Shown here: positions 27,379 to 35,276 of the stretch, one piece after another | Numbering within the stretch: position 1 is the first letter of the stretch | Layout: the number at the start of each line of letters is the position of its first letter | Assembly (NCBI RefSeq): GCF_020102855.1 | Contig: NZ_JADHZD010000001.1 | Span: 186,001 to 250,000, forward strand | Direction: 5' to 3' | Length of the DNA stretch: 64,000 nt | DNA from: Nocardioides lacusdianchii | GTDB taxonomy: Bacteria > Actinomycetota > Actinomycetes > Propionibacteriales > Nocardioidaceae | Notes under the pieces: model-generated | The model's database searches: none | What the model saw: only the letters and a program-made list of their open reading frames with translations | What the model was told of the DNA's origin: nothing | Program-made: the position numbers and the translations under genes

Positions 27379-28608
27379 TCAGGCAGTCACGCGATCCGCA
27401 CGCGTCGCGGAGAGGTGCCAGCGCCAGCACGCCCAGCCCAGCAGCACGCACACCGCGGCTGCCACGGCGAAGCCGAGGACCGAGCGCCCGGCGTACGGGG
27501 CGAGCAGGGCCGCGCTGGCGGCGTTGAACACGAGCGTCACGAACGACCCCGCCGACATGACCGCGCCCCGACGGGTCGGGACGAGGTCGAGCATCAGCAG
27601 CTGGATGTTGGGGAAGGCCAGGCCGTTGCCGAGCGCGACCAGCGCGACCCCCGCTGCCGCCCACGGCAGCACCTCGCCCGCCGGCGTCAGCGCGACGACG
27701 ATCCCCAGCAGCGCTCCCGCGCCGCTCACGGCGTAGCCGACGGACACCAGCTGGGTGCTGGTCACCAGCCGGCCCAGCCGACCGCTCAGCACCGAGCCCA
27801 CCACCATCGCCCCGATCATCGGCACGAACAGCTTCCAGAAGTCGAGCTCGCCCTCCCCCAGCAGGTCGACGACGAAGATCGCCGCGCCGCCGATGTAGAG
27901 GAACTGCGCGCCGAAGACGAGCGTGCCGGCCCAGGCCATCCGGTGGAAGGCGGGCACGGACACGACGGCCAGGAGACCCGCGACGACCTCGCCGACCGCC
28001 AGCGGGACCCGGCGCTCGGGCGGGTGGCTCTCGGGGAGCAAGGCGATCGACCCGGCGAGGAGGAGGACCGCGAGCGCCGCCATGAACCAGAAGACCGTCT
28101 GCCAGGGCCCGACCTGCACCAGCAGCCCGCCGACGACCGGGGCGATCGCGGGCGCCAGCCCGAAGATCACCGCGACCTGGCTCATCATCCGCTGCGCCTC
28201 GACGCCGTCGAACAGGTCACGGATGATCGTGCGGCTCACGATCGTCGAGCCGCCGGCGGCCAGCCCCTGCACCACCCGGCCGACCAGCAGCCACTCCAGC
28301 GTCGGCGCGAAGGCGCACGCGACGGACGCGACGGCGTACGCCGCGAGCGACCACACGATCACCGGCTTGCGGCCGATCGCGTCGGACAGCGGTCCGTGGA
28401 AGATGCTCATCGCCGCGAAGGCCAGCATGTAGGCCGTGACGACGAGCTGGAGCTCCCCGGCCGTGACGTCGAGGGCCTCGCCCATCTGCGCGAACGCCGG
28501 GAAGGGCGTGTCGATGCTGAACGGGCCGATCATCGACAGCATCGCCAGGACCAGCGGGATCAGCGCCAGGGTGCGGGCGGCCGGACGGGTGGCCGGCGCG
28601 GAGGTCAT
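27379..28608 (-). CDS. Bcr/CflA family multidrug efflux MFS transporter
   Basis: 409 residues with about 12 hydrophobic segments. Family motifs include FSIDTPFPAFAQMGEALDVT, MSIFHGPLSDAIGRKPVIVW (MFS motif A) and GRVVQGLAAGGSTIVSRTII (drug:H+ antiporter motif), as in Bcr and CflA. It exports drugs or small metabolites with the proton gradient. It overlaps the GH15 gene by ATGA, making it the last gene of a zwf-GH15-MFS unit; this coupling to sugar metabolism is odd for a drug pump and could mean it exports a sugar-related product (inference). Confidence 0.9.
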   Translation of the reverse strand: MTSAPATRPAARTLALIPLVLAMLSMIGPFSIDTPFPAFAQMGEALDVTAGELQLVVTAYMLAFAAMSIFHGPLSDAIGRKPVIVWSLAAYAVASVACAFAPTLEWLLVGRVVQGLAAGGSTIVSRTIIRDLFDGVEAQRMMSQVAVIFGLAPAIAPVVGGLLVQVGPWQTVFWFMAALAVLLLAGSIALLPESHPPERRVPLAVGEVVAGLLAVVSVPAFHRMAWAGTLVFGAQFLYIGGAAIFVVDLLGEGELDFWKLFVPMIGAMVVGSVLSGRLGRLVTSTQLVSVGYAVSGAGALLGIVVALTPAGEVLPWAAAGVALVALGNGLAFPNIQLLMLDLVPTRRGAVMSAGSFVTLVFNAASAALLAPYAGRSVLGFAVAAAVCVLLGWACWRWHLSATRADRVTA

Positions 28609-30440
28609 GCGTCGAGGCTACGGTCCAGGTTGATCACGGCGCTGATCAGGCCGAGGTGGGTGAAGCCCTGGGGGAAGTTGCCGAGCTGCTCACCGTTGAG
28701 GCCGACCTGCTCGGCGTACTGCCCGAGGTGGTTGGCGTAGGTGAACATCTTCTCCAGCGCCAGCCGGGCGTCGTCGAGACGACCGGCGCGGGTCAGCGCC
28801 TCGACGTACCAGAACGAGCAGAGCGAGAAGGTGCCCTCGCCGTCGGCGCCGCCCTCGACCCCGTCGTCGAAGGTGTCGGCGTCGTAGCGCAGCACCAGGC
28901 TGTCGGAGACCAGGCGCTCCTCGACGAGCGCGAGGGTGGAGAGGAAGCGCGGGTCGTCCGGCGCGAGCATCTTCACCATCGGCATCAACAGCGTCCCGGC
29001 GTCGAGCACGTCGCCACCCTCGAAAGCCGTGAAGGCGCCGAGCTCGTCGTTCCAGCACTCGGTCATGACGCGCTCGTAGATCGCGTCGCGGGTCGCAGCG
29101 AGCTCGGTGAGGTCACCCGGCAGCCCGCGCCGCCGCGCGACGCGCATCATCCGCTCGACGGCGACCCAGCTCATCACCAGTGACGTGGTGTGGGTCCGCG
29201 GCTCGCCCCGGATCTCCCACATGCCGGCGTCGGGTCGCTCCCAGTTGTCCATCAGCCACGACACGATCCGACGCAGGTCGGTCCACGCGTCGTGGCTGAT
29301 GCCCCGCCCGTGCTTGTCGAAGAGGTAGACCGAGTCGATCAGCTCGCCGTAGACGTCGAGCTGGAGCTGGTCGACCGCGCCGTTGCCGACCCGCACCGGG
29401 CGTGAGCCGCGGTGTCCGGCGAGGTGGTCGAGCTCGCGCTCGTGGGGGATGGCGCCGTCGAGGTCGTAGAGCACCCGCAGCGGGCCGAGCTCCTCCGTGT
29501 CGACGCCGTCGTCGGCGGCCTCGCCGAGCCGCTCGGACAGGAAGCGGACGAAGGCCGAGGCCTCGTCGGTGAAGCCGAGGCGCAGGAGCGCGTAGACGCT
29601 GAACGCGGCGTCGCGCACCCAGACGTAGCGGTAGTCCCAGTTGCGGGTGCCACCGATGTGCTCGGGCAGGCTCGTGGTGGGCGCGGCGATGATGCCGCCG
29701 CTCGGCTCGTGGCACAGCAGCTTGAGGGTGAGCGCCGAGCGGTCGACCCACTCGCGCCAGCGGCCGGTGTAGGTGCTCTGCGCGAGCCAGCCTCGCCAGA
29801 ACCCGGCCGTGGCGTCGAAGAGCTCGTCCACGTCGGCCTCGCTGCATCCCCGGGCCGGCTCGCCGGGGGCGAGGACCTCGAGCACGAAGAGGGCGGACTC
29901 GCCGGTGCGCAGCGCGACGTGCGCCGTCGCGGCGTGGTCGGCGACCTCCACGTCCACCGTGCTCGAGAGTGCGAGGTGCACGTCGCCGTCGGCGAAGCGC
30001 ACGACGTCGTCCTCGGTGGACAGCTCGGGCATGGTCGTCGCGTAGTCGGGACGCGGCGACATCGCCATGGTGAGCTCGACGCAGCCACGCAGCCCCACCA
30101 CGCGGCGTACGAGCCGTTGGCGGTGGTCGGGGTCGTGCGCGCGCAGCACCGGCATGAAGTCCTGGACCTCCACCACGCCCTGCTCGGTCATGAAGCGGGT
30201 GACGAGGATGTTGGTCTCGGGGTGGTAGTACTGCTGGCTGCGCGCCTCCTCGTCGTCGGGCCCCAGCCGCCACGAGCCGGCATCGGGGTCGAGGATCGAG
30301 GCGAAGACGCTGGGGGCGTCGAAGCGACCGGGGCAGAACCAGTCGATGGTGCCGTCGGTGGCCACCAGGGCCGCTGTGCGCAGGTCGCCGACCAGGCCGT
30401 GGTCGGCGATCGACGGCCCGTCGGGGCGCTCAGCCCGCAT
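28605..30440 (-). CDS. Glycoside hydrolase family 15 protein (trehalase/glucoamylase type)
   Basis: 611 residues from ATG 30440, which overlaps zwf by 11 nt. An N-terminal beta-sandwich ([40 protein letters not shown]) precedes the (alpha/alpha)6 barrel with [40 protein letters not shown] and [19 protein letters not shown], typical of actinobacterial GH15. Characterised relatives are trehalases and glucoamylases; coupling to glucose-6-phosphate dehydrogenase fits release of glucose for the pentose phosphate pathway. There is no signal peptide, so it acts in the cytoplasm. The exact substrate is not settled by sequence. Confidence 0.92.
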
Positions 30441-31863
30441 CGGCCGCGTCCCGGCCGAGCCGCCACCCGCCGGGCGGCAGGTCGAGCGCCTCCCGCGGTC
30501 CCCACGACTCCCGGTCGTACGGCAACGGGTCGGGTCGGTCGTCGAGGACGGGCTGGCAGACCTCCCACAGCCGGCGCGTCTCGTCGGCGTGGGCGAAGAG
30601 GGTGTGGTCGTCGTGCAGCACGTCGAGCAGCAGCCGCTCGTAGGCCTCGAGCGGCTCGTCGTGGGGCAGCTCCTCGCCGAGGTCGAGTCGCATCGTGGCC
30701 GGCGCGAGCTCCATCTCGGGGCCGGGGCGCTTGCCGAGGAGCTCGACGTGCACCTGGGCCTCGTCGGTGAGCTCGAGGACGAGCTCGTCGGGCTCGAGGC
30801 CGGCACCGAAGACCGTGGAGTCGGGCTGGCGGAAGCGCAGGGTGACCGTGCGGCGGGTCTCGGCCATCGCCTTGCCGGTGCGCAGGTGGAAGGGGACGTC
30901 ACGCCACCGGTCGTTGTCGACCCAGGCCTCGAGCGCCACGTAGGTCTCGACGGTCGAGTCCGCGTCGACGTCGTCCTCGTCGTGGTAGCCGTCGTACTGC
31001 CCCAGCACGACCCGTGCGGGGTCGAGCGGGCGTACGGCGTCGAAGACCTCGGCCCGCGCGCGGCGCACGGCGCTGGCCGACCACTCGCCCGGGTCCTCCA
31101 GCGCCACCGCACCGAGGATCTGGAACAGGTGGGTGGAGACCATGTCGCGCAGCGCGCCGGTGGACTCGTAGAACGAGCCGCGGCCCTCCATCGCCAGCGT
31201 CTCGGGGACGTCGACCTGCACCGAGGCGATGCTGCGCCGGTCCCAGGCCGGCTCGAAGAGCGCGTTGGCGAAGCGCAGGGCCAGCAGGTTCTGCACGGCT
31301 TCCTTGCCGAGGAAGTGGTCGATGCGGAAGACCTGGTCCTCGTCGAAGACCTCGTGCACGTCGTGGTCGAGCTCCTCGAACGACTCGAGGTCGAGCCCGA
31401 AGGGCTTCTCGATCACCAGCCGCGCGCGCTCGGCGAGGCCCTCGCGGCCGAGCATGGCGACCATCCCGGACATCGCGGTGGGCGGCACGGAGAGGTAGAC
31501 CAGACGGCGTACGCCGTCACCGAGGGACTCCTCGACCTCGCGCACCCGAGCGGCCAGGTCGGCCCCGTCGTCGGCGTCGGAGGTCTCGAAGGAGGTGCGC
31601 TCGAGCAGGTCGCGGGCGACCGACTCGTCGAGGTCGTCCACGCTGTCACGCAGGCCGCCGAGGACCTCGTCGCGGAACTCCTCGTCGGTGCCCGGCGAGT
31701 GGCGCCCGCTGCCGATGACGGCGTACTCCTCCGGCAGCCGGCCGGCCGCGGCGAGGCGGTAGAGGCCGGGGAAGAGCTTGCGCGCCGCGAGGTCCCCGCG
31801 GGCGCCGAAGAGGAGGAAGACGTAGGGCGGCAGGTCGGGGTCGGCGGACCCGGTGCTGGTCAT
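30430..31863 (-). CDS. zwf: Glucose-6-phosphate dehydrogenase
   Basis: 477 residues. The N-terminal Rossmann motif is [20 protein letters not shown], the active-site segment [20 protein letters not shown], and the C-terminal domain has [20 protein letters not shown]. Catalyses glucose-6-phosphate to 6-phosphogluconolactone with NAD(P). GARGDLA replaces the common GASGDLA in the coenzyme loop. It lacks the opcA-tal-tkt neighbours of the usual actinobacterial zwf operon, so it may be a second copy paired with GH15. TAGCGT 6 nt before ATG 31863 predicts a leaderless mRNA. Confidence 0.95.
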
Positions 31864-31902: not shown

Positions 31903-33135
31903 TCAGGAGTTGCTGAAGACCGCCGGTCCGCCGTCCTCGCCGGACGCACCTCCCGACGGACCGGGACCAGGGCCCGCCCAGGTCCAGGCGTACGCCGGGT
32001 CCTCCACGGCCAGTCCGCCCTCGCCCAGCTCCAGCGGGGCGAAGGTGTCGACCATGACCGCGGACTCGTCGAAGTAGTCGGCACCCAGGCTCGCCTCGAT
32101 GGCGCTGGGCTGCGGGCCGTGGGCGTGGCCACCGGGGTGCAGGCTGATCGAGCCGAGGTTGATCCCCGAGCCCTTGCGCGCCTCGTAATCGCCGCCGACG
32201 TAGAACATGACCTCGTCGGAGTCGACGTTGGAGTGGTAGTAGGGCACCGGGATGGCGAGGTCGTGGTAGTCGACCTTGCGGGGCAGGAAGTTGCAGATCA
32301 CGAAGTTCCACCCCTCGAAGACCTGGTGCACCGGCGGCGGCTGGTGGACCTTGCCGGTGATCGGCATGTAGTCCTCGATGTTGAACGTGTAGGGGTAGAG
32401 GCACCCGTCCCAGCCCACCACGTCGAAGGGGTGGGTGGCGTAGGTGAGCCGGGTGCCGACGACGCCCGCACTCGTGCGGTGCTTGACCAGCACCTCGACG
32501 TCGGTGCCCTCGGCCTGGTGCGTCTCGGCGGGGCCGTGGAGGTCGCGCTCGCAGTAGGGCGCGTGCTCGAGGAGCTGGCCGAAGCGCGAGAGGTAGCGCT
32601 TGGGCGGGTGGATGTGGGAGTTGGCCTCGATGGCGTAGAGGCGCGACGGCTCGGCCGGGACCCAGCGGTGGTCGGTGGCGCGCGGGATCACGACGTAGTC
32701 GCCGGTCCGGTAGGCCACGACGCCGAAGACGGTCTCGACCGTGCCCGAGCCGGACTCGACGTAGACGCACTCGTCGCCGATGGCGTTGCGGTAGAGCGGG
32801 GACGGATCGGTGCCCGTGACGACGTAGGCGATACGGACGTCGTTGTTGCCGAGCACCAGGCGGCGCCCCTCGACCGGGCAGGTGCCGGTCTCGAGGTCGT
32901 GCAGCTTCAGGTGCCGTGGCTTGAGCGGGTGGTTGGGCGTGCGCGACTGGTCGGCGAGCTCCCAGACCTGGCTGTCGGTGATCGCGCTCGGCACGCCGCG
33001 GCGGTAGAGCAGGGAGGAGTCGGAGGAGAACCCCTCCTCGCCCATCAGCTCCTCACGGAAGAGGTGGCCGTCCTCGTCGCGCATCTGCGTGTGGCGCTGG
33101 CGTGGCAGCCGGCCAAGGGCTCGGTAGTGGGCCAT
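31903..33135 (-). CDS. hmgA: Homogentisate 1,2-dioxygenase
   Basis: 410 residues from ATG 33135, with AGGAG 8 nt upstream. Recognisable segments are GDECVYVESGSGTVETVFG, VIPRATDHRW, WDGCLYPYTFNIEDYMPITG, NFLPRKVDYHDLAIPVPYYH and the iron-site end ISLHPGGHAHGPQPSAIEAS. It opens the ring of homogentisate to 4-maleylacetoacetate in tyrosine/phenylalanine breakdown. It is divergent from an unknown gene and fumarylacetoacetase, with a shared palindromic control region. The end (from about 385) is a Gly/Pro-rich tail. Confidence 0.96.
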   Translation of the reverse strand: MAHYRALGRLPRQRHTQMRDEDGHLFREELMGEEGFSSDSSLLYRRGVPSAITDSQVWELADQSRTPNHPLKPRHLKLHDLETGTCPVEGRRLVLGNNDVRIAYVVTGTDPSPLYRNAIGDECVYVESGSGTVETVFGVVAYRTGDYVVIPRATDHRWVPAEPSRLYAIEANSHIHPPKRYLSRFGQLLEHAPYCERDLHGPAETHQAEGTDVEVLVKHRTSAGVVGTRLTYATHPFDVVGWDGCLYPYTFNIEDYMPITGKVHQPPPVHQVFEGWNFVICNFLPRKVDYHDLAIPVPYYHSNVDSDEVMFYVGGDYEARKGSGINLGSISLHPGGHAHGPQPSAIEASLGADYFDESAVMVDTFAPLELGEGGLAVEDPAYAWTWAGPGPGPSGGASGEDGGPAVFSNS

Positions 33136-33153
33136 GACGGTCGCTCCTGTCTT

Positions 33154-33180
33154 CCGATTATCGGACGCAGGCGTCCGCTA
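33154..33180. promoter_or_regulatory. Overlapping palindromes in the hmgA/fah divergent promoter
   Basis: TATCGGACGC-AG-GCGTCCGCTA (33159-33180) is a 10-bp inverted repeat with one mismatch, and CCGATTATCGG (33154-33164) overlaps its left end. The site sits about -22 to -43 relative to the predicted plus-strand start and just upstream of hmgA. It is well placed for an IclR- or MarR-type regulator of homogentisate breakdown; no regulator gene is in the window. Confidence 0.6.
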
Positions 33181-33189
33181 TCTGGTGGC

Positions 33190-33195
33190 TAGAGT
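33190..33195 (+). promoter_or_regulatory. -10 box for a leaderless unknown-gene/fah mRNA
   Basis: TAGAGT ends 6 nt before GTG 33202, so the expected +1 is the G of the start codon. Confidence 0.55.
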
Positions 33196-33201
33196 AGCCC
33201 C

Positions 33202-34059
33202 GTGGTCCCCTCCCCTGCACCTGCCGAATCCGCCCAGTGGCGCGGTCTCGTCGACGACGCCGCGATCTTCCCGCCCGGTGACGTCCCGCTCCACGACGCG
33301 ACGGCGTCGTGGGGCGCCCGCAGCGGGGAGTGGTACGCCGACCTCGTCGGGACCTTCGTGCTCAAGGACACCGACGTGCCGCTGGTCCGCGGCTTCGGCG
33401 CGCCGCTGTCGGTCGTGGTGACCGGCGGTGCCGGGCAGGTCGCCGGCCCCCTCGGTGCCGCCGCGCGCCTGGGCCTCGAGGTCGCCGCACTGGAGATCGC
33501 GCTGCGCGACCCCGACGACCTCGCCGGCAACGTACGCCGGGTGGTGGCCGCGCTGGACCACGCCCGCGACGAGGGCACGCTCGCCGACGACGTACGCGTC
33601 CACGTCGAGGTCCCCGGACCGGTCACCCCCGCCTGGCTCGCCGCCGCCGACGAGGTGGCCGCGGCCGACCTCCGGCTCAAGCTGCGGCTGGGTCACGTCG
33701 ACCACGACCTGGTGCCCGACGAGGCGACGGTGGCCTCCTGGATCGACGCGACCCTGGACCGCGAGACACCGTTCAAGGGCACCGCCGGCCTGCACCGCGC
33801 CGTGCGCCACGACCCCGAGGACGGAGGCATGCACGGCTTCCTCAACGTCCTGGTCGCCACCCAGGTGCTCTGGGACGGTGGCTCCGTCGCCGACGCGACC
33901 GACGCCCTGCGCCAGCGAGACGGCGAGGCGCTCGCCGCGACCGACATCGGTTCGGCGCGCCGCTGGTTCACCTCGTTCGGCTCCTGCTCGGTGACCGAGC
34001 CCCTCGACGACCTGGTCGCGCTCGGCCTGCTCACCCCCCACCCCGCGGAGGACTCATGA
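33202..34059 (+). CDS. Uncharacterised protein of the homogentisate pathway operon
   Basis: 285 residues from GTG 33202; I do not recognise a named family. It has no signal peptide or membrane segment. Alternating strand/helix pattern (PLSVVVTGG, LEVAALEIAL, VRVHVEVPG, LRLKLRLGHV) and ETPFKGTAGLHRAVRHD, then MHGFLNVLVATQVLW, suggest a beta/alpha barrel. There is one Cys, near the C-terminus in WFTSFGSCSVTEPLDDL. It overlaps fumarylacetoacetase by ATGA and is divergent from hmgA. The pathway step between the two, maleylacetoacetate isomerisation, has no gene here; the usual enzyme uses glutathione, which actinobacteria generally lack. A glutathione-independent isomerase role is a hypothesis from context only. 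Confidence 0.85.
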   Translation: MVPSPAPAESAQWRGLVDDAAIFPPGDVPLHDATASWGARSGEWYADLVGTFVLKDTDVPLVRGFGAPLSVVVTGGAGQVAGPLGAAARLGLEVAALEIALRDPDDLAGNVRRVVAALDHARDEGTLADDVRVHVEVPGPVTPAWLAAADEVAAADLRLKLRLGHVDHDLVPDEATVASWIDATLDRETPFKGTAGLHRAVRHDPEDGGMHGFLNVLVATQVLWDGGSVADATDALRQRDGEALAATDIGSARRWFTSFGSCSVTEPLDDLVALGLLTPHPAEDS

Positions 34060-35276
34060 CCCACCACGCCACCACCTGGGTGCCCGGCGCCGCCGGCTCC
34101 GGCTTCGACGTCGACCACCTCCCCTACGGCGTCTTCGCGCGCTCCGGCGAGCACCCGCGCGTCGCGGTCCGGATCGGCGACCAGGTGCTCGACCTCAGCA
34201 TCGTGGCGGCCGCCGACATGGTCGACACCCACGCGCTCTTCGACCAGCCCACGCTGAACCCCTTCATGGCGGCCGGGCCGACGGTGTGGGAGTCGACGCG
34301 CGCCTGGGTCACCGGGCTGCTGACCGACGAGACCGAGCGCGACCTCGTTGAGCCCGCCCTCTCGCCGGTGGACTCGGTGCGGATGCTGATGCCCTTCACC
34401 GTCGGCGACTACGTCGACTTCTACGCCTCCGAGCACCACGCCTCCAACGTCGGGCGGATGTTCCGCCCCGACGCCGAGCCGCTGCTGCCCAACTGGAAGC
34501 ACCTCCCCGTCGGCTACCACGGCCGCTCCGGCACCGTCGTGGTCTCGGGCACCGACGTCGTACGCCCCTGCGGGCAGCGCAAGGCGCCCGACGCCGACCG
34601 GCCGACCTACGGCCCGTCGGCGCGCCTCGACATCGAGGCCGAGCTCGGCTTCGTCGTCGGCGTCCCCTCGGCGATCGGTGAGCGCGTCGCGACCGCCGAC
34701 TTCGCCCGCCACACCTTCGGCGTCGTCGGCCTCAACGACTGGTCGGCGAGGGACGTCCAGGCGTGGGAGTACGTCCCGCTCGGCCCGTTCCTCGGCAAGT
34801 CGTTCGCGACCTCGATCAGCGCCTGGGTCACCCCGCTCGCGGCGCTCGACGCGGCCTGGACCGAGCTGCCCGGCCAGGACGACCCGGAGGTGCTCGACTA
34901 CCTCCGCGTCGAGGGCCCTGCCGGTCTCGACATCGAGGTCGAGGTGGTGCTCGACGGCGAGGTCGTCGCCCGCCCGCCCTACCGCACGATGTACTGGTCG
35001 CCCGCGCAGATGCTGGCCCACACGACCGTCAACGGTGCGAGCGTGCGCACCGGAGACCTCTGGGGCTCCGGCACCGTGTCAGGACCGGAGCGCGACCAGC
35101 GCGGGTCGCTGCTCGAGCTGAGCTGGGGCGGCAAGGAGCCCTTCACCGTCGCCGGCCGCGAGCGGACCTTCCTCGAGGACGGCGACGAGGTGACCCTGCG
35201 CTACACCGCGCCCGGCACGGGCGGGGGCCGGATCTCGCTCGGCGAGGTCACGGGCCGCATCCTCCCGGCCCGCTGA
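34056..35276 (+). CDS. fahA: Fumarylacetoacetase
   Basis: 406 residues. N-terminal SH3-like domain (LPYGVFARSGEHPRVAVRIG), then the FAH barrel with metal ligands in VGDYVDFYASEHHASNVG (Asp), ARLDIEAELGFVVG (Glu-x-Glu) and GLNDWSARDVQAWEYVPLGP (Asp); PNWKHLPVGYHGRSGTVV is the catalytic His/substrate loop. It splits fumarylacetoacetate into fumarate and acetoacetate, the last step of tyrosine breakdown. The ATG overlaps the preceding gene by ATGA, so translation is coupled. Confidence 0.96.
   Translation: MTHHATTWVPGAAGSGFDVDHLPYGVFARSGEHPRVAVRIGDQVLDLSIVAAADMVDTHALFDQPTLNPFMAAGPTVWESTRAWVTGLLTDETERDLVEPALSPVDSVRMLMPFTVGDYVDFYASEHHASNVGRMFRPDAEPLLPNWKHLPVGYHGRSGTVVVSGTDVVRPCGQRKAPDADRPTYGPSARLDIEAELGFVVGVPSAIGERVATADFARHTFGVVGLNDWSARDVQAWEYVPLGPFLGKSFATSISAWVTPLAALDAAWTELPGQDDPEVLDYLRVEGPAGLDIEVEVVLDGEVVARPPYRTMYWSPAQMLAHTTVNGASVRTGDLWGSGTVSGPERDQRGSLLELSWGGKEPFTVAGRERTFLEDGDEVTLRYTAPGTGGGRISLGEVTGRILPAR

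Follow-up and report, generated by a model that had tools for sequence, protein, structure and literature searches.

An unnamed protein family with a predicted TIM barrel, linked to fumarylacetoacetase in Nocardioides, as a candidate glutathione-independent maleylacetoacetate isomerase

Glutathione-independent isomerisation of maleylpyruvate has been reported biochemically for gram-positive bacteria, including B. megaterium, since the 1980s, and glutathione-independent isomerisation of homogentisate products is likewise known from gram-positives, so the question of the responsible gene is an old one. Many tyrosine-degrading bacteria are without the customary glutathione-using enzyme of the penultimate step. 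Actinobacteria, as well as the bacilli and cyanobacteria that harbour the plasmids described below, seem to degrade tyrosine and homogentisate with no glutathione-dependent isomerase of the textbook kind. In actinobacteria, maleylpyruvate, a closely analogous substrate, is isomerised by the mycothiol-dependent MDMPI, according to work cited in PMC6498646. Homogentisate supports growth of Rhodococcus ruber Chol-4, whose hmg cluster as described names hmgR, hmgA and hmgB and no isomerase (PMC6498646). A proteomic study of R. globerulus grown on phenylalanine or 2-hydroxyphenylacetate reports HmgA and HmgB and names no isomerase (PMC11889516). Here we describe a gene, called X in this work, in a window of 64,000 nucleotides (the whole stretch of DNA that was analysed) from Nocardioides lacusdianchii. 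We propose, with a probability of roughly 60%, that X is a glutathione-independent maleylacetoacetate (MAA) isomerase of a new family and a non-orthologous replacement for MaiA/GSTZ. If X is this enzyme, a missing step of aromatic catabolism would be filled across three phyla, and an annotation marker as well as a non-GST isomerase for study would be gained.

The gene lies between homogentisate 1,2-dioxygenase (HGD) and fumarylacetoacetase (FAH) genes, with the following features in the window:

31903 to 33135, minus strand: divergent HGD, 410 aa, head-to-head with X (PF04209/PF20510)
33153 to 33177, unstranded: two overlapping inverted repeats, a probable operator common to HGD and X-FAH
33190 to 33195, plus strand: -10-like hexamer TAGAGT, 6 nt upstream of the X start codon GTG, with hexamer and position kept in most aligned Nocardioides loci
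33202 to 34059, plus strand: gene X, a 285-aa protein with a GTG start and no internal stop; unnamed family, candidate glutathione-independent MAA isomerase with a predicted TIM barrel (on the open reading frame, linkage and model)
34056 to 35276, plus strand: FAH, 406 aa, coupled to X (TIGR01266, 438.2 bits; PF01557, PF09298)

An earlier reading of this DNA, made from the letters alone (the sequence-only reading), had described X as an unrecognised gene for a protein with one Cys, coupled to fumarylacetoacetase, and these descriptions agree with our results. X has no family match in Pfam or NCBIfam, and a sequence search of the PDB returned chance matches alone and no relative; homology to a known enzyme of unrelated function, which that reading had named as a possible counter-argument, was found by none of these sequence searches. 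When the Pfam-A/NCBIfam scans were extended to 19 members of the family, a weak match to CbiZ appeared in 2 of the 19 homologues (E 1e-4); it was rejected, being absent from the window protein, whose predicted fold is a TIM barrel. No paper naming X was found in a search of the openly licensed literature, and the plasmid annotations examined label it "hypothetical protein". X is not a chance open reading frame: it is present in 80 of 98 Nocardioides genomes sampled, the genus being assigned from named loci that are nearly identical, and also outside the phylum. The protein contains exactly one Cys, C262, and the end of X overlaps the start of FAH in an ATGA (33202-34059 and 34056-35276), which makes translational coupling plausible.

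The downstream gene is indeed a fumarylacetoacetase, passing the NCBIfam equivalog TIGR01266 with 438.2 bits against a cut-off of 375.3. The upstream gene, read before as a plain hmgA of the same cluster, needs a qualification on both counts. It fails the equivalog TIGR01015 (62.5 bits against a cut-off of 510.75) but matches PF04209 and PF20510, and was therefore classed as a divergent HGD; it is shorter, and its alignment to the human enzyme (1EY2, E 1.4e-9) spans the C-terminal region in which human HGD has its iron ligands. It lies upstream of X, but on the opposite strand and divergently transcribed, so that it does not form one operon with X-FAH. Further along the minus strand, a long ORF at 28605-31863 ends in a probable glycoside-hydrolase-15-like protein, after an ORF resembling glucose-6-phosphate dehydrogenase (477 aa, 30430-31863); both were named by eye.

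HGD and X are separated by 66 bp (33136-33201) constituting a divergent promoter region. The inverted repeats, TCCGATTATCGGA at 33153-33165 and CGGACGCAGGCGTCCG at 33162-33177, are kept in sequence and spacing in most of the Nocardioides loci where HGD and X are divergent, which suggests that one operator may govern HGD and X-FAH jointly. The position of the TAGAGT hexamer suggests that the X-FAH transcript may be leaderless; a sigma-70 consensus scan of the promoter region gave no promoter and did not pick up TAGAGT.

The host genome has 4-hydroxyphenylpyruvate dioxygenase (HPPD), HGD and FAH. The sequence-only reading had proposed looking for maiA elsewhere in the genome and comparing the occurrence of X with that of the pathway genes, and both comparisons came out on its side. 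The best match to maiA (TIGR01262) in the whole host genome scored 11.7 bits, where the cut-off stands at 171, and none of 296 actinobacterial genomes carried maiA above the cut-off. In the phylum sample, FAH passed its cut-off in 29 genomes, of which 15 carried X; among the 267 others X occurred in 1, a broken contig. One of the 15 (G355) holds a degenerate copy, which was found with the broader A4 profile and missed by the Nocardioides-only profile. Among the 98 Nocardioides genomes, intact X, defined by the presence of all of E136, K160, R162, K192, H198 and C262, was found in 71 of 84 FAH-positive and 0 of 14 FAH-negative genomes; three FAH-negative genomes retain a copy of X, and the conserved residues are lost in all of them. 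The Fisher p-values of the two comparisons (2e-16 for the phylum and 6e-10 for Nocardioides) overstate the evidence because related genomes are not independent, but the direction is clear. Many Actinomycetota (e.g. G103, G110, G125 and G139) carry a divergent HGD-like cupin, with about 30-104 bits to TIGR01015, without FAH, and these cupins may act on another substrate.

The linkage was examined in 88 loci, comprising 79 named Actinomycetota genome loci and nine on plasmids. In 78 of them the gene directly 3' of X, in the same orientation, is FAH, and HGD adjoins X in most. Two further loci end at a contig edge before FAH could show, and in two Nocardia loci HGD adjoins X with FAH close by on the opposite strand. 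HGD is divergent from X in Nocardioides and Kribbella, while HGD-X-FAH is co-directional in Rhodococcus, Amycolatopsis and Kitasatospora; the gene order thus changes and the association stays. In a type genome of R. ruber (L121), X is located between HGD and FAH. Five Kitasatospora/Streptomyces loci (L086, L094, L095, L099 and L103) have an intact-looking X with neither HGD nor FAH within 8 kb, its neighbours being an amino acid permease, an S41 peptidase, GDSL lipases and ArsR-like regulators.

Beyond Actinomycetota the family was traced by a search of annotated plasmids, so that the other phyla rest on the plasmid collection. Plasmids of Priestia aryabhattai and P. megaterium carry the order hppD - X - fahA - aminotransferase - HGD - amino acid permease, a compact and apparently complete tyrosine degradation operon (L156, 6738-14407; L279) in which the aminotransferase is annotated hisC and which an Lrp/AsnC regulator adjoins. 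On a plasmid of the cyanobacterium Kovacikia, HGD-HPPD is divergent to X-FAH, with HGD and HPPD named from the sequence by eye. A Tsukamurella plasmid has hppD-HGD-X-fahA, and Rhodococcus and Pseudonocardia plasmids have HGD-X-FAH. Apart from the isomerase, the Priestia, Kovacikia and Tsukamurella sets contain every named enzyme leading from 4-hydroxyphenylpyruvate to fumarate and acetoacetate, and they include no unassigned enzyme-like gene other than X. This isomerase slot left for X is the strongest single argument for our reading. Since the HPPD-HGD-X-FAH sets leave only the isomerase step, a role as the pathway isomerase is clearly better supported than the other role offered in the sequence-only reading, that of a pathway accessory.

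The AlphaFold2 model of X (55 sequences; pLDDT 93.7, pTM 0.91) is a single alpha/beta barrel, with residues 6-280 aligned to TIM barrels, so the earlier description of the protein as barrel-like was borne out by the structure prediction and fold search that it had called for. Foldseek returned mixed TIM-barrel families with a best E of about 2e-4. After re-alignment with VIA-align, deoxyribose-phosphate aldolases (DERA) ranked at the top (Z 14.8-14.0), the nearest solved fold being 1n7k_A (Z 14.8, rmsd 3.1 over 206 residues), and homocitrate synthases followed within about one Z unit. The most conserved residues are D18, P24-P25, E98, E136, K160, R162, K192, T194, G196, H198, R202, H211-G212, N215, G260 and C262, and the conserved charged and nucleophilic side chains among them are of the kind that enzymes typically have. 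The residues that matter for the chemistry proposed below are encoded as follows:

33679 to 33681, plus strand: K160 codon, in the motif K-x-R-x-G-G on strand 158-162, sixth by count; invariant in alignment A3 and above 90% in A4
33775 to 33777, plus strand: K192 codon, in the motif F-K-x-T-A-G-L-H on strand 191-194, seventh by count; invariant in alignment A4 and above 90% in A3
33985 to 33987, plus strand: C262 codon, in the motif F-G-S-C-S directly behind the final strand (256-261); invariant in alignment A3, above 90% in A4, and disappearing together with K192 in degenerate copies

The fold search raises the question of whether X is itself a DERA-type enzyme of unrelated metabolism that hitch-hikes with FAH. 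DERA is the nearest fold (Z 14.8), and in a comparison of X with actinobacterial DERA by hhalign the weak local match (E 0.23, 21 columns) sets K192 on the second DERA lysine. That profile comparison is not significant, so the family was not filed as DERA; neither X nor the family members match a DERA profile in Pfam or NCBIfam, the host genome carries its own DERA, and intact X tracks FAH in genomes and across phyla. Such a hitch-hiker is hardly credible.

The main rival to the isomerase reading is that X acts on metabolites of the homogentisate pathway in another way, for example by cleaving or hydrolysing MAA or the toxic side products maleylacetone and succinylacetone, while the isomerisation is spontaneous or is carried out elsewhere. 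A retro-aldol or beta-diketone reaction would suit an aldolase-like barrel, and the nearest folds are class I aldolases, with two lysines conserved in X. X is also dispensable in some genomes with HGD and FAH, as an auxiliary step would be, and a glutathione-dependent nonenzymatic bypass is named in the title of a study of MAAI-deficient mice (Fernandez-Canon 2002, cited in PMC11457941). On the other hand, X sits among the enzymes of the flanking steps in minimal operons of three phyla, where no other candidate isomerase is present. We consider an auxiliary role of this kind unlikely.

The dispensability of X was seen in several groups. HGD is immediately followed by FAH, with X missing, in seven Nocardioides genomes and in G332 of family f4 (loci L142, from G332, and L209-L216). 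In eight genomes of one genus, probably Streptomyces, classical hmgA and FAH are present and no X was detected; there the conserved gene downstream of the classical hmgA, considered as a mycothiol-type isomerase, turned out to be a GntR/UTRA regulator. Three members of genus g132 differ in this respect, G259 having an intact X, G355 a ruined one and G344 none, and a ruined copy stands beside FAH in G355 and in five Nocardioides genomes. The degenerate branch in Nocardioides (L255, L256, L257, L270, L272, L273, L276, L277 and L219) is stripped of almost all the active-site residues (DDAxFPP, K160, K192, H198 and C262) and retains scaffold stretches, e.g. VVTGGAGQVAGP and RDxDDxAGNxRRxxAA; five of these copies adjoin FAH, and others accompany an intact X as a second copy. 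The branch may represent either a pseudoenzyme or a decay series.

Since X is absent or ruined in some genomes with HGD and FAH, it is replaceable and not obligatory, and genomes without it need another isomerase or a spontaneous thiol-catalysed route. A natural reason for its dispensability would be that MAA isomerises non-enzymatically with low-molecular thiols, and the bypass in the mouse title cited above is of this type. Another possible substitute is one of the MDMPI_N proteins, many of which are encoded in these genomes, with eight in the host. The cases without X lower our confidence in the isomerase reading and favour no other specific role of X.

These MDMPI_N proteins also allow a reading in which isomerisation is the work of a mycothiol-dependent DinB/MDMPI protein whose gene lies elsewhere, with X as a non-catalytic partner that stabilises HGD/FAH or serves them as a scaffold. 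Any of the eight could be such an enzyme, MDMPI handling maleylpyruvate in actinobacteria (cited in PMC6498646), and the persistence of six FAH-adjacent copies of X without active-site residues hints at a non-catalytic role or at decay. None of the eight genes, however, is in the HGD/FAH cluster of the window, conservation of the active-site-like residues of X extends over three phyla, which would be needless for a scaffold, and the X family also occurs in organisms that do not use mycothiol. We judge this arrangement distinctly improbable.

Returning to X as the isomerase, the analysis shows the open reading frame, its linkage, the lack of maiA and a predicted TIM-barrel fold, and the activity is our inference. 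HGD would open homogentisate to MAA, X would turn the cis double bond of MAA to trans with no need for glutathione, and FAH, coupled to X, would hydrolyse the fumarylacetoacetate to fumarate and acetoacetate. We infer two alternative chemistries for X, a Schiff base or an internal Cys. The conserved K160/K192, on adjacent strands, could react with the conjugated C4 ketone to give an iminium/dienamine and thereby loosen the C2-C3 double bond; alternatively, the near-invariant C262 could add to the double bond by Michael addition as an internal stand-in for glutathione. The conserved R162, R202 and H198 would bind the carboxylates. That a class I aldolase-like barrel with amine catalysis by K160 or K192 explains glutathione-independent homogentisate catabolism in the three phyla concerned (Actinomycetota, Bacillota and some Cyanobacteriota) is possible but rather doubtful; if true, the chemistry would be unlike that of the known thiol-dependent MAA and maleylpyruvate isomerases. 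The sequence-only reading had left a mycothiol-dependent and a thiol-free isomerase side by side. The linkage favours its isomerase of the pathway, and the mycothiol link as such is not favoured: because family members are found in Bacillota and Cyanobacteriota as well, users of other thiols, a thiol-free or internal-thiol mechanism fits better.

Compared with known systems, X is nearest in fold to DERA/DeoC (TIGR00126), a class I aldolase, and both have a (beta/alpha)8 barrel. The two lysines of X, K160 and K192, are conserved on the strands that are sixth and seventh by count, and the Schiff-base lysines of DERA presumably sit on strands six and seven. The identity is about 10-15%, a level at which a sequence relationship is not demonstrable; the X motifs DDAxFPP, KxRxGG, FKxTAGLH, HGFLN and FGSCS are specific to X, and the genomic context differs too. 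Maleate cis-trans isomerase, of the Asp/Glu racemase superfamily, uses an active-site Cys, and one mechanism proposed for C262 has an internal Cys act as the Michael nucleophile; the enzyme belongs to a different family. MDMPI (PF11716, DinB-like) is actinobacterial like X and would share with it a glutathione-independent cis-trans isomerisation, which for X is a proposal. It differs in predicted fold, PF11716 (Pfam) has no match in X or in 18 homologues, and X occurs also outside mycothiol producers. MaiA/GSTZ (TIGR01262), a zeta-class glutathione transferase, has a GST fold with an N-terminal thioredoxin-like domain, whereas X shows no sequence match to TIGR01262 and is modelled as a TIM barrel with no glutathione-binding region; what X would share with MaiA is the proposed reaction and the slot between HGD and FAH.
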